Part shown: one piece after another, positions 4,571 through 7,618 of the stretch
How positions within the stretch are numbered: the first letter of the stretch is position 1
How the letters are laid out: every line of letters begins with the position of its first letter
Source of the DNA: Ramlibacter sp.
GTDB taxonomy: Bacteria > Pseudomonadota > Gammaproteobacteria > Burkholderiales > Burkholderiaceae_C
Assembly: GCA_028291885.1 (NCBI GenBank)
Contig: JAQGNJ010000229.1
Location: 1-34,300 of the forward strand
Direction: 5' to 3'
Length of the DNA stretch: 34,300 bases
Position numbers and translations under genes: made by a program
Notes under the pieces: model-generated
What the model was told of the DNA's origin: nothing
Databases searched by the model: none
What the model saw: only the letters and a program-made list of their open reading frames with translations

Positions 4571-5140
4571 ATGAGCACAGGCAATTCGCGGCTGCCCTCG
4601 ACGATCTCCGGTTCGCGGCCGGGCAGCAATTTCGGCCAGCTCAGCGACTTCCTGCGCGGCACCAATGCCGACGAGGAAAGCCGGCGCGTCGGCGAGAGCA
4701 TGTCGGAGCTGGCGGCGCATGTCGAAGGGCTCATCGAGGGCCTCAAGCAGGGCAAGGTGCGCACGACGATCGCGCCGCTGCTGGTGGACCTGCTCACGGT
4801 GCTGCGGGCCCACCGCCACATGGTCGTCGGGCTGGGCCTGCCCTGGCGCGGGCTCTACGAATACGCCGGCTACCTGCAGGCGCTCAATCACTTTCGCGTT
4901 CTGATCGGCCAGTGGCTGCTCGATGGCGGCCCGCGCAGCAGGGAACTGCTGCTCAATGCCGAGGACTTCGAGCTGGTCGCCTGGCGCACGCTGGCCGAAG
5001 GCATGCTGCTGATCGACGTCTACGAGCAATGGGTGATCCGCGAGCAGCACGAACAGCAGCAGCAGGAGTCCGGGCTGGCCGCGCTGTCGGAGCCGCAGGT
5101 CGACCGCGCGATCCAGTGGTGGAAGAAGTTGCGGCTGTGA
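4571..5140 (+). CDS. Conserved hypothetical protein, 189 residues
   Basis: I do not recognise a family. The first ~30 residues are Ser/Gly-rich and probably disordered. The rest looks all-helical: an amphipathic ESMSELAAHVEGLIEGLK segment, then two helix pairs rich in Leu, Trp and Tyr, then a Gln-rich EQHEQQQQES linker and a basic Trp-containing tail (IQWWKKLRL). There is no signal peptide and no clear membrane helix. The ATG is 16 bases after tldD, and the gene ends 40 bases before the promoter of the aroG leader. Codon use is like its neighbours. Its position suggests a housekeeping accessory role, but no function is assigned. Confidence 0.75.
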   Translation: MSTGNSRLPSTISGSRPGSNFGQLSDFLRGTNADEESRRVGESMSELAAHVEGLIEGLKQGKVRTTIAPLLVDLLTVLRAHRHMVVGLGLPWRGLYEYAGYLQALNHFRVLIGQWLLDGGPRSRELLLNAEDFELVAWRTLAEGMLLIDVYEQWVIREQHEQQQQESGLAALSEPQVDRAIQWWKKLRL

Positions 5141-5180
5141 GACAGGCCCGCCCACGCCCGCTGGAACGGCACGGGAGCTG

Positions 5181-5189
5181 TGCTATATT
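5181..5189 (+). promoter_or_regulatory. Extended -10 promoter of the aroG leader
   Basis: TGCTATATT is an extended -10 (TGn plus TATATT at 5184-5189). A weak CTGGAA lies 17 bases upstream at 5161-5166. The predicted start is 5196, one base before the leader ATG, so the leader peptide would be read from a nearly leaderless mRNA. Confidence 0.5.
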
Positions 5190-5196
5190 GGCTGCC

Positions 5197-5268
5197 ATGC
5201 GTGCAACCCGCTCTTATTTTTTTGGTTCCTTTTGGTTCTCCAGCCCATCCGGCGGCCGAGAGATCTGA
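5197..5268 (+). CDS. Aromatic-rich leader peptide of aroG (attenuator)
   Basis: This is a 23-codon ORF, ATG at 5197 and TGA at 5266-5268. Residues 7-14 read YFFGSFWF: one Tyr, four Phe and one Trp within eight codons (5215-5238). Such a run is far from the average composition and resembles the PheL and TrpL leader peptides of enterobacteria. The remaining codons (SSPSGGREI) contain a CCGGCGG segment at 5249-5255. That segment is identical to the 3' arm of the downstream terminator, so it can compete for the 5' arm. Expected logic: a ribosome stalled on aromatic codons leaves 5249-5255 free to form the antiterminator, while one reaching the stop codon covers it and lets the terminator form. 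The gene downstream makes DAHP, the common precursor of Phe, Tyr and Trp. The ORF is too short for routine gene callers. Confidence 0.85.
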   Translation: MRATRSYFFGSFWFSSPSGGREI

Positions 5269-5309
5269 GCGTACCTGCAACCCACGCACCGAACTCCCAA
5301 AACCGCCGG
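5249..5309 (+). promoter_or_regulatory. Predicted antiterminator of the aroG attenuator
   Basis: CCGGCGG at 5249-5255 can pair over seven G-C pairs with CCGCCGG at 5303-5309, which is also the 5' arm of the terminator. The structures are mutually exclusive. The 5249 arm lies inside the leader ORF, 10 bases past the last aromatic codon and 10 before the stop codon, where it is masked or exposed according to ribosome position. Confidence 0.7.
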
Positions 5310-5328
5310 CAACCCCGGCGGTTTTTTT
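5299..5328 (+). terminator. Intrinsic terminator of the aroG attenuator
   Basis: CCGCCGG (5303-5309) pairs with CCGGCGG (5315-5321) around a five-base loop. The stem is extended by A-T pairs and followed by seven T residues (5322-5328). It lies between the leader stop and the aroG start, so it must be bypassed for aroG expression. Confidence 0.9.
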
Positions 5329-5362
5329 ATGTCCATTCGATCCGACCTCTAGGAGCACCGCG

Positions 5363-6481
5363 ATGAACGACCAGTCCCCCGCCGACCGTCCCTGGCAGAC
5401 GCAGCCTGTCGACAAGACCAGCCAGACCGACGACGAACGCATCAAGGACATCACCGTGCTGCCGCCTCCAGAACACCTGATCCGCTTCTTCCCGATCCGC
5501 GGCACCGCGGTCGAGAACCTGATCACCGACACCCGCAGGAACATCCACAACATCATGGGCGGCAGCGACGACCGGCTGCTGGTGGTGATCGGCCCGTGCT
5601 CGATCCACGATCCCGAGGCGGCGCTGGAATACGCGCGACGGCTCAGGCAGGCGCGCAGCAAGCACCAGGACACGCTGGAAATCGTGATGCGGGTCTACTT
5701 CGAGAAGCCGCGCACGACGGTCGGCTGGAAGGGGCTGATCAACGATCCCTATCTGGACGAAAGCTTCCGCATCGACGAGGGGCTGCGGATCGCGCGCCAG
5801 CTGCTGATCGAGATCAACCGCCTGGGCCTGCCCGCGGGCAGCGAATTCCTGGACGTCATCTCGCCCCAGTACATCGGCGACCTGATCTCCTGGGGCGCGA
5901 TCGGCGCGCGCACGACCGAAAGCCAGGTCCACCGCGAGCTGGCCTCCGGCCTGTCGGCGCCGATCGGATTCAAGAACGGGACCGACGGCAACATCCGGAT
6001 CGCGACCGACGCGATCCAGGCCGCCGCGCGCGGCCACCACTTCCTGTCCGTCCACAAGAACGGCCAGGTCGCGATCGTCCAGACCAACGGCAACAAGGAC
6101 TGCCACGTCATCCTTCGCGGCGGCAAGGCGCCGAACTACGACGCCGCCAGCGTGGCGACGGCCGTCAAGGACCTGGAAGCTGCCGGGCTGCCCGCCAGGC
6201 TGATGGTCGACTGCAGCCATGCCAACAGCAGCAAGCAGCACGAGAAGCAGCTGGATGTCACACGCGAGATTGCTGCCCAGGTCGCCGCTGGCTCGCGCAG
6301 CGTGTTCGGCGTGATGATCGAAAGCCACCTCACTCCCGGAGCCCAGAAGTTCACGCCCGGCAAGGATCTGGCGAGTGGCCTGGAGTATGGGAAAAGCATT
6401 ACCGACGCTTGCCTCGGCTGGCAGGATTCGCTCCAGGCGCTCGACATCCTCTCGGGCGCCGTGAAGTCCAGGCGCGGTTAA
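5363..6481 (+). CDS. aroG: 3-deoxy-7-phosphoheptulonate synthase (DAHP synthase, type I alpha)
   Basis: The enzyme condenses phosphoenolpyruvate and erythrose 4-phosphate into DAHP, the first step of the shikimate pathway. The ATG at 5363 is chosen because AGGAG at 5351-5355 precedes it; earlier in-frame starts lie upstream in the attenuator. The 372 residues match the E. coli AroF/G/H class. Visible are the metal-site GPCSIHD (77-83), RVYFEKPRTTVGWKG, the EFLDVISPQYIGDLISWGAIG region, the GFKNGTDG loop, the C-terminal metal ligands in MVDCSHANS, and FGVMIESH. Feedback specificity (Phe, Tyr or Trp) cannot be told from sequence alone. The leader, with codons for all three amino acids, suggests transcription responds to general aromatic supply. 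Confidence 0.96.
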   Translation: MNDQSPADRPWQTQPVDKTSQTDDERIKDITVLPPPEHLIRFFPIRGTAVENLITDTRRNIHNIMGGSDDRLLVVIGPCSIHDPEAALEYARRLRQARSKHQDTLEIVMRVYFEKPRTTVGWKGLINDPYLDESFRIDEGLRIARQLLIEINRLGLPAGSEFLDVISPQYIGDLISWGAIGARTTESQVHRELASGLSAPIGFKNGTDGNIRIATDAIQAAARGHHFLSVHKNGQVAIVQTNGNKDCHVILRGGKAPNYDAASVATAVKDLEAAGLPARLMVDCSHANSSKQHEKQLDVTREIAAQVAAGSRSVFGVMIESHLTPGAQKFTPGKDLASGLEYGKSITDACLGWQDSLQALDILSGAVKSRRG

Positions 6482-6507
6482 AGACAGCTGATCCGTGACA
6501 TATTCCA

Positions 6508-6536
6508 TTTACAACTAGTAACCATTAGATTACATT
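6508..6536 (+). promoter_or_regulatory. Sigma-70-like promoter of the 344-residue unknown gene
   Basis: TTTACA (6508-6513), a 17-base spacer and TACATT (6531-6536) lie in the most AT-rich stretch of this part of the window. The predicted start near 6543 gives a ~40-base leader containing a short hairpin (GTGCC 6545-6549 with GGCAC 6554-6558) and the RBS. Confidence 0.5.
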
Positions 6537-6583
6537 TGTTGCGAGTGCCAGAGGGCACGCCTTTCTTTGAGAAGGACCGCAAC

Positions 6584-7618
6584 ATGTCGATCGAACTTCC
6601 GGTGCTCCGCCTTGGCCTGGCGGGGTTTTCCGCCCAGCAGGTCGCCGAACTCGACGCCCTGCTGCGCCGGTCGGCGCCTGGGCGGTACATCTGGCAGATC
6701 GGTCATTTCAACGACGCCGATGCCTGGTGGCTCAACGGGTCGCGGGTCCAGCGAGTCGCTGAAAACGCCATCCGCATCGTCCCGGCGATCCCGACCGAAC
6801 GTTCGCTGCAACTGAACATGGAAGAAGTGGACCGGCCGATCGGCTTCGGCCTGCCGCTTGCCTTTGCGCCTTCCGAGCCGAACTACACCTTCGATCCGGC
6901 GTCGCCGGCCAGCGTCAACCAGGTGCTGGAAAAGTTCGAAAGCTGGCTCCAGCCCATCGCCGCCCAGTTCTCGCTCGCCGCCCGCATCATCGAGCAGGAA
7001 AGCGTGCTCGGCTCGGCCTCCTACCATGTCGTTCTCAACGGCCAGTTGCTCGCCGTGGTCAACATGCTGGGCGACATCGGCGTCTTCCCGAGCGCGGGCC
7101 CGGCTGATTTCGACGACGCCATGTGGGTGCGCCAACCGGCAAAGAGCGGCATCCCCGAGTCCTTCGTCCGCACCTCGCTGTCCGAGCTGATGTGGCAATA
7201 CGCCTTGCGGACCACGCGCGACGTGCTGCCCAAGCGCTATCGCACCGGCCTGCTTTACTTCCGCCGCCCGCCGCACCTGCCGCAGCGCCTGCTGTCGGAT
7301 TCGCACCTGCTGGTGATGCGGGAACTGTCGGCAGGCGCCGGCGTCTTCGCCGACCTGCAGCAGCGCACCGGGATGGCCGCGGCGGCGCTGGCCAGGATCC
7401 TCGCGGCGCTGTACCTCGTGGGAACCATCACCTCCAACCCGAAGCGCGCGTCGGTGACGACGATCGGCGCCGTCCGCGACGAGGTCGAACCCAGCATCGG
7501 CATCCAGCACAGCGTCGTCCCGTCGGGGCTGGACGGCGAGTCGGTCCCGGCCACGCAGCCGCCGCGGCGCCGCAGGCTGGTCGACTTCACGCTTCCCGTT
7601 CCGCTGCTGCGGCGCTAA
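6584..7618 (+). CDS. Conserved hypothetical protein with C-terminal winged-helix-like region, 344 residues
   Basis: I do not recognise a named family. The ATG at 6584 has GAGAAGGA just upstream. The N-terminus (LRLGLAGFSAQQVAELDALL) looks like a response-regulator-like or sensory alpha/beta start. The middle holds a helical segment around residues 105-140 and a conserved-looking VNMLGDIGVFPSAGPADFDDAMW stretch. Residues ~240-290 (LLVMRELSAGAGVFADLQQRTGM, then LARILAALYLVGTITSNPKR) resemble a winged helix of the kind found in DUF4388-like or regulator C-termini. The tail is Arg/Pro-rich. There is no signal peptide. It has its own promoter, and its stop codon overlaps that of mpl tail to tail. 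A cytosolic regulatory or scaffold role is only a guess. Confidence 0.75.
   Translation: MSIELPVLRLGLAGFSAQQVAELDALLRRSAPGRYIWQIGHFNDADAWWLNGSRVQRVAENAIRIVPAIPTERSLQLNMEEVDRPIGFGLPLAFAPSEPNYTFDPASPASVNQVLEKFESWLQPIAAQFSLAARIIEQESVLGSASYHVVLNGQLLAVVNMLGDIGVFPSAGPADFDDAMWVRQPAKSGIPESFVRTSLSELMWQYALRTTRDVLPKRYRTGLLYFRRPPHLPQRLLSDSHLLVMRELSAGAGVFADLQQRTGMAAAALARILAALYLVGTITSNPKRASVTTIGAVRDEVEPSIGIQHSVVPSGLDGESVPATQPPRRRRLVDFTLPVPLLRR

Follow-up and report, generated by a model that had tools for sequence, protein, structure and literature searches.

Flux into aromatic synthesis enters through DAHP (3-deoxy-7-phosphoheptulonate) synthase, an enzyme also targeted in metabolic engineering. In the window (the whole stretch of DNA analyzed, 34.3 kb), the gene for this enzyme, aroG, is preceded by a short open reading frame (ORF) crowded with aromatic codons and by a terminator, which raises the question of whether transcription of aroG is governed by the ribosome that would translate the short frame. 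The analysis points to a ribosome-mediated transcription attenuator of aroG, a reading to which we assign a probability of about 0.88. The host genome is a 4.3-Mb draft of 340 contigs; around the device, the genes follow each other in the order rodA, tldD, an ORF of 189 aa (4571-5140) and aroG, with mpl farther on, on the opposite strand. The aroG product matched TIGR00034 (aroFGH) with an E-value of 4.9e-160 (531.9 bits, cut-off 173.2) and PF00793 with an E-value of 2.1e-95, while against NF006723 (AroG) the E-value was 1.3e-162, yet the score of 540.6 bits is below the cut-off of 568. A second DAHP synthase of the host genome (locus L002, G000 C310:7645-8655) is 55% identical, and neither leader nor terminator was found at this paralogue under the automatic criteria.

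Table 1. Elements of the aroG leader region, with positions in the window
Feature	Position	Strand	Sequence or size
Extended -10 element, 7 nt before the leader ATG	5181..5189	+	TGC-TATATT
Leader peptide ORF	5197..5268	+	MRATRSYFFGSFWFSSPSGGREI; 23 codons + TGA
Segment 1, anti-antiterminator 5' strand (last Phe codon plus the first two bases of the codon that follows)	5236..5240	+	UUCUC
Segment 2, competitor inside the leader ORF, antiterminator 5' strand	5249..5255	+	CCGGCGG
Segment 2 continued, anti-antiterminator 3' strand	5258..5262	+	GAGAG
Segment 3, terminator 5' arm, common to terminator and antiterminator	5299..5309	+	AAAACCGCCGG
Segment 4, terminator 3' arm and U tract (T7 at 5322-5328)	5315..5328	+	
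aroG Shine-Dalgarno sequence	5351..5355	+	AGGAG
aroG, class I DAHP synthase, the regulated gene	5363..6481	+	372 aa

Residues 7-14 of the leader peptide read YFFGSFWF, six of them aromatic (Y, F, F, F, W, F). The earlier note had placed this run and its ORF, as well as CCGGCGG and a terminator consisting of a stem at 5303-5321 and T7, and all of these positions proved exact. On both strands of the window, this is the single ATG-started ORF of 10-40 codons with at least six aromatics in eight residues, and all 87 aromatic-dense short ORFs detected in the 601,724 bases of loci L001-L111 were aroG leaders (87/87, with 0 others). The aromatic mixture therefore looks selected, because the background holds no comparable ORF, and the frame has the appearance of a leader in being short and in having many codons for end products of the pathway to which aroG belongs. 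Alignment of the region upstream of aroG in relatives, proposed in the earlier note as a check, turned out in its favor: leader and terminator occurred together in 93 of the 111 fetched aroG-type loci (automatic criteria; 91 distinct in sequence), and both antiterminator and terminator show compensatory changes. Past the aromatic run it is the RNA and not the C-terminal peptide that is conserved, because GGCGG is kept across changing reading frames; its core starts at codon positions 1, 3 and 2 in 57, 35 and 1 of the 93 leaders, respectively, and the peptide over this common core varies (PGGRE, PAVER, TAAGEA, LADREG). At two loci, L064 and L098, the RNA elements upstream of aroG are kept and the leader frame is broken by a change in the length of a T run, which, on reading of the DNA, represents either a sequencing error or a decaying leader.

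Codons for all three aromatic amino acids had been claimed for this leader, and the claim extends to most relatives: of the 93 leaders, 78 contain Phe, Tyr and Trp, 14 lack only Trp, and one has no aromatic other than Phe. Leaders were grouped by hand, using leader type and record titles, into 71 Comamonadaceae-type (including some non-Comamonadaceae loci), 12 Burkholderia-type and 10 Oxalobacteraceae-type. Of the 71 Comamonadaceae-type leaders, 39 close their aromatic run with YFWF, counted as the last aromatic and the three residues before it; the leader of the window has SFWF there and is the only one of the 71 to do so. A Ser codon, TCC at 5227-5229, stands three before its last aromatic, where 44 of the 71 relatives carry Tyr. 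The leader of the window thus lacks a proximal Tyr codon, and its sole Tyr codon lies seven codons before the last Phe. In the equilibrium model described below, a ribosome at this distal codon would open the switch; such a stall would leave segment 1 uncovered, and the effect of the Tyr codon in the window is therefore likely to be weaker. Judging by codon content, joint reading of all three aromatics would fit most relatives better than the window genome itself. The alternative that survives best, and which we consider possible but rather unlikely, is an attenuator in which Phe alone sets read-through in practice and the Tyr and Trp codons add little. The missing proximal Tyr codon in the window genome is what such a device would allow, as are the position of Phe as last aromatic in 61 of 71 Comamonadaceae-type leaders and the absence of Trp from all Oxalobacteraceae-type ones (10/10). 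It sits poorly, however, with the placement of Trp one before the last aromatic in 49 of 71 leaders and of Tyr three before it in the 44 mentioned above, as well as with the predominance of leaders that contain all three residues.

The effect of ribosome position was calculated by masked folding of 92 of the 93 leaders (L005 was left out), an equilibrium calculation that ignores pausing and kinetics, with a mask reaching 12 nt past the first base of the A-site codon, which is the toeprint value of E. coli. The mean antiterminator probability was 0.85-0.99 with the A site between -9 and 0 relative to the last aromatic codon (n = 92), and 0.91-0.99 when only the last aromatic codon and the three codons preceding it are considered as A-site positions (0.91 at the last itself). 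Past this codon the mean fell to 0.48 at +1, 0.16 at +2 and 0.02 at +3; a fall somewhere is inevitable from the masking itself, and the informative part is its place just behind the last aromatic codon. With the ribosome at the stop codon, the mean was 0.00 and the probability was below 0.5 in 92/92 leaders. For the window's own leader, the antiterminator probability stayed at 1.0 as far as the last Phe, dropped to 0.64 at +1 and was 0 from +2; when no ribosome was present, it was 0.01. For the 92 leaders without a ribosome, the mean was 0.46 and the median 0.19; the anti-antiterminator is hence weak in many leaders, because about 45% of them reach an antiterminator probability of at least 0.5 in this state, and basal behavior probably differs among species.

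From these elements we infer the transcription start, the translation of the leader, the stalling, the read-through and the amino acids sensed, which would combine as follows. Transcription would begin at or next to the leader AUG, and the ribosome would load there directly. When Phe-, Tyr- or Trp-tRNA is scarce, the ribosome would stall within the aromatic run; a stall near the end of the run would cover UUCUC and leave CCGGCGG free to pair with the newly made 5' arm of the terminator, and the resulting antiterminator would permit transcription of aroG. When all three are plentiful, the ribosome would proceed to the stop codon, which lies 10 nt beyond the competitor, and would mask CCGGCGG, upon which the terminator would form and transcription would end. 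In the absence of a ribosome, UUCUC:GAGAG and neighboring pairs would tend to hold segment 2, favoring termination. The earlier note had presented a two-way switch between terminator and antiterminator; these structures do exclude each other, but the data support a four-segment attenuator whose anti-antiterminator had been overlooked. Absent from that note were the helix 5236-5240/5258-5262, the -10 box at 5181-5189 and the reach beyond Comamonadaceae. The folding profile, which opens for a stall anywhere from nine codons before the last aromatic up to it (0.85-0.99), would also suit a sensor of translation in general rather than of tRNA. Antibiotic-sensing leaders open in this manner on any slow-down or block of the leader ribosome. 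We regard such general sensing as improbable here, given that the codon content corresponds to the pathway end products both in the tabulated beta-type leaders and in those of alpha and gamma members that were written out.

Folding of 5181-5362 alone gave z = -1.98, with folds as good in 9 of 200 shuffles, so that the single sequence is only modestly better than its shuffles and the case rests on conservation. An intrinsic terminator lies between the leader ORF and the first structural gene, with a core of 5303-5309 / 5315-5321 and A-T pairs that extend the stem to 11 bp (5299-5325). The 36 nt that follow the last of the aromatic codons contain a stretch of 7 nt or more perfectly complementary to the terminator arm in 67 of 93 loci, compared with 2.2% of shuffles; the corresponding values were 81/93 versus 8.7% for at least 6 nt, and 92/93 versus 34% for at least 5 nt. 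When the whole leader was searched without restriction, the longest perfect complement to the arm fell outside the competitor in 11/93 loci and was absent in one. An antiterminator exclusive of the terminator, with its 5' strand placed where ribosome position decides, was found, the exceptions being L005 (CCGGCCG) and L038 (CCGGUGG, with a perfect complement of only 4 nt). An anti-antiterminator (1:2) pairing was found as well; in the fold model it is weak in the proportion of the 92 leaders given above.

The presence of these elements, their conservation and their compensatory changes were established by computation. Alignment A1 comprises 84 of the 93 leaders (omitted were L005, L048, L067, L071, L078, L088, L092, L104 and L109) and alignment A2 comprises 67; GGCGG is kept in eight of the nine leaders omitted from A1, and the ninth, L005, has GGCCG and counts against the pairing. 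In A1, 91.3% of cells in the antiterminator were paired, with 16 cells changed on both sides, and the terminator had 94.7% and 20 such cells. The UUCUC:GAGAG helix (n = 84) was paired in 89.3% of cells and had 14 double-changed cells, with both-sided changes in 5/5 pairs. For all three helices, the proportion of paired cells and the number of double-changed cells were equalled by 0/500 shuffles, a comparison in which related sequences may beat shuffles without any structure; slid registers, which retain the relatedness, paired at most 65% (antiterminator), 67% (terminator) and 70% (UUCUC:GAGAG) of cells, below the true register. Measures that count pairs stayed near shuffle level, because antiterminator and terminator vary at their outer pairs and hardly at the central ones: both-sided changes occurred in 2 antiterminator pairs (as high in 243/500 shuffles) and 2 terminator pairs (90/500), further pair types numbered 7 (11/500) and 6 (106/500), respectively, and one slid antiterminator register showed 3 pairs with both-sided change, against 2 in the true register. 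In alignment A3, consisting of 39 sequences and adding probable xanthomonad and alphaproteobacterial members, 88.1% of antiterminator cells were paired and 20 were double-changed; both-sided change occurred in 4 of its pairs (as high in 2/500 shuffles), and its eighth pair fails in 24 of 39 sequences.

These results also bear on the possibility that the structure is no more than the terminator of the upstream 189-aa ORF, accompanied by a chance ORF. In favor of this explanation are the strength of the terminator and the end of the upstream ORF at 5140; we nevertheless find it barely credible, since the competitor covaries, the device precedes aroG in other classes too, and the leader is the sole aromatic-dense short ORF of the window as well as one of a kind that coincided with aroG leaders in 87/87 cases. 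The combination of a chance ORF with an ordinary terminator was rejected on this ORF background and on the statistics of the 7-nt complement. Hardly more plausible is a metabolite-binding riboswitch or T-box acting on the same terminator, for which the GCGU...ACGC inverted repeat visible between competitor and terminator in many Comamonadaceae might speak and which we reject, as Rfam searches yielded nothing over the leader either in window positions 4700-6700 (E-values up to 5, only a chance mir-21 match outside the leader) or in 20 relatives at the gathering threshold (two matches, a cobalamin riboswitch and an SRP RNA, both elsewhere). This repeat (5268-5292 in the window), recognized by eye, may extend or cap the antiterminator.

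The position of the -10 element predicts that transcription starts on the A of the leader ATG or no more than 1-2 nt away, which would give a leaderless leader mRNA; no good match to a -35 element was seen by eye upstream of the -10 box in the window. A -10-like hexamer is located 6-8 nt before the ATG in 67 of the 71 Comamonadaceae-type loci, with one at 9, one at 13 and two without any. In the Oxalobacteraceae-type loci, the best -10 match lies at least 25 nt upstream in 9 of 10 (one has none), and the -10 criterion singled out 0 of 12 Burkholderia-type loci. Alphaproteobacterial loci show CTATA about 8 nt before the leader ATG in 11 of 16 cases (by eye). Shine-Dalgarno-like 4-mers precede 0/71 Comamonadaceae-type, 1/12 Burkholderia-type and 2/10 Oxalobacteraceae-type leaders; their absence from the first group is a weak argument, because the two groups with a longer 5' leader seldom have them either.

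Under the automatic criteria, 18 of the 111 loci lack the device, among them the paralogue L002, L015 at the edge of a contig, Polynucleobacter (L037, L041, L042), Cupriavidus (L036, L044) and records titled Planctomycetota, Verrucomicrobiia and Gemmataceae. Weaker leader-like ORFs were seen in L029 and L030; that of L030, MRTTVRYHFWHFHIQHLTGAGVANA, lies between about 136 and 58 nt upstream of the matched start of aroG, has His codons among the aromatic ones and is followed by a terminator. Model R1, built from 67 of the 93 leaders, matched 146 of 150 genomes of the family, the four misses being drafts of 55-90% completeness. In the host genome it identified one strong copy (E-value 1.4e-18), and a second candidate (C112, E-value 0.0035) was rejected on reading of the DNA as a chance terminator behind an unrelated ORF. 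In the order, 92 of 300 genomes matched at an E-value ≤0.01 and 78 at ≤1e-3, compared with 232 of 300 having an aroG-type gene at ≤1e-50; the device is thus common, yet not universal, across the order. At least 62 of these 78 matches are directly before aroG among the 66 aroG matches listed, and three more precede aroG in fetched loci (L136, L137, L141). The match in G110 (C46, E-value 5.1e-4) was discarded as an aroG leader, the single aroG match of this genome being on C1. In the order-wide loci L112 and L118-L146, aroG is directly downstream in 30/30.

A search of 274 genomes of the class returned strong R1 matches only in the family of the window and in family f63, which, from its gene and leader types, is probably Xanthomonadaceae; matches weaker than about 1e-4 in this search had no adjoining aroG (L149-L161). 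In f63, 14 of 60 genomes matched at an E-value ≤1e-3, and aroG was downstream in 10/10 aroG-leader loci examined (L147, L148, L162-L166, L178-L180). Of 249 genomes of the phylum, 26 matched R1 at the same threshold, including families f244, f247 and f251, the first two of which are presumably Bradyrhizobium-like and Rhizobiaceae-like. Among 14 R1 regions fetched, aroG follows the leader in 13 and an ilvC-like gene in one. Model R2 (39 sequences) added further alphaproteobacterial families with the device; as it over-scores bare terminators, many matches covering only model positions ~90 to 123, its use was limited to strong full-length matches. Five of its six strongest alphaproteobacterial matches (including G948, a member of the model) precede aroG and one is at a contig end. 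Overall, genomes of Burkholderia type and Oxalobacteraceae type, as well as those of probable xanthomonads and probable rhizobia, also have the device before aroG.

In principle, this is classical ribosome-mediated attenuation, and the device is real, complete, deeply conserved and broad in reach. The trp and phe leader-peptide attenuators of enterobacteria combine an ORF of end-product codons with alternative helices. The aroG device resembles TrpL and PheL in its end-product codons, terminator, antiterminator, anti-antiterminator and the decisive role of ribosome position, and differs from them in governing the common first step, DAHP synthase, instead of a single branch, in having Phe, Tyr and Trp codons in one leader, in its predicted leaderless start and in having no Rfam match. 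Mixed-codon leaders such as thrL (Thr/Ile) and those of ilv (Ile/Leu/Val) likewise read several related amino acids in one leader, although for other amino acids and genes. The mechanism of ribosome-mediated attenuation has been described (PMC2659441). The leader RNA of Sinorhizobium meliloti trpL (rnTrpL/peTrpL) starts with the ATG of its ORF and is thus leaderless (PMC7298713, PMC10117765); it is a Trp leader governing trpE(G) with a reported 5' end, whereas the start of the aroG leader is predicted from the position of the -10 element. The uORFC-13-1 motif, upstream of Acholeplasma aroF, likewise places one or more Phe codons and a terminator ahead of a gene for DAHP synthase; its published description gives 24 representatives with a ribosome-binding site, from Acholeplasma and unassigned environmental sequences only, and names Phe alone (PMC8632094). 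Two uORF candidates with Phe and Tyr near genes of shikimate metabolism were reported among five other genomes by Stav et al. (2019); these may overlap with the leaders described here (PMC6429828). In gammaproteobacteria, TyrR and TrpR control DAHP synthase genes (PMC5343134); enzyme family and signals are alike, but these are protein regulators acting on DNA instead of an RNA device.

Searches of an open-licence library brought up no account of an aroG leader from these groups, in agreement with the earlier note, which knew of none of this mixed type in Comamonadaceae; an earlier account may exist elsewhere. Tentatively, and at a little short of even odds, we propose that the leaders form a single class of leaderless attenuators, ancient and unregistered, by which beta-, alpha- and gammaproteobacteria (the last probably Xanthomonadaceae) control entry to the shikimate pathway through the joint charging of Phe, Tyr and Trp tRNAs, in the role held elsewhere by TyrR/TrpR. 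Its distinguishing features would be three amino acids in one leader at the entry of the pathway and the predicted leaderless start, the latter adding a widespread case to the precedent of S. meliloti trpL. A single leader with three inputs predicts how many soil, water and plant-associated bacteria set the flux of this pathway, and the leader ORF with its terminator provides an annotation where Rfam gave no match. By analogy with rnTrpL/peTrpL, the roughly 130-nt terminated RNA and the peptide might also act in trans.

Other leaders were encountered during these searches. The R1 region followed by an ilvC-like gene (L177, G775 C136), from a probable xanthomonad, was rejected as an aroG leader; on reading of the DNA, its peptide contains ILVLVLIT and a terminator follows, as in a branched-chain attenuator. 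Locus L161 (G488 C33) also has a leader with branched-chain codons and a terminator. L228 and L229 are weak R2 matches that lack aroG; on reading of the DNA, their minus strand encodes an FFF-x-FFF leader, probably pheL, so that the aroG leader and pheL peptides would resemble each other.
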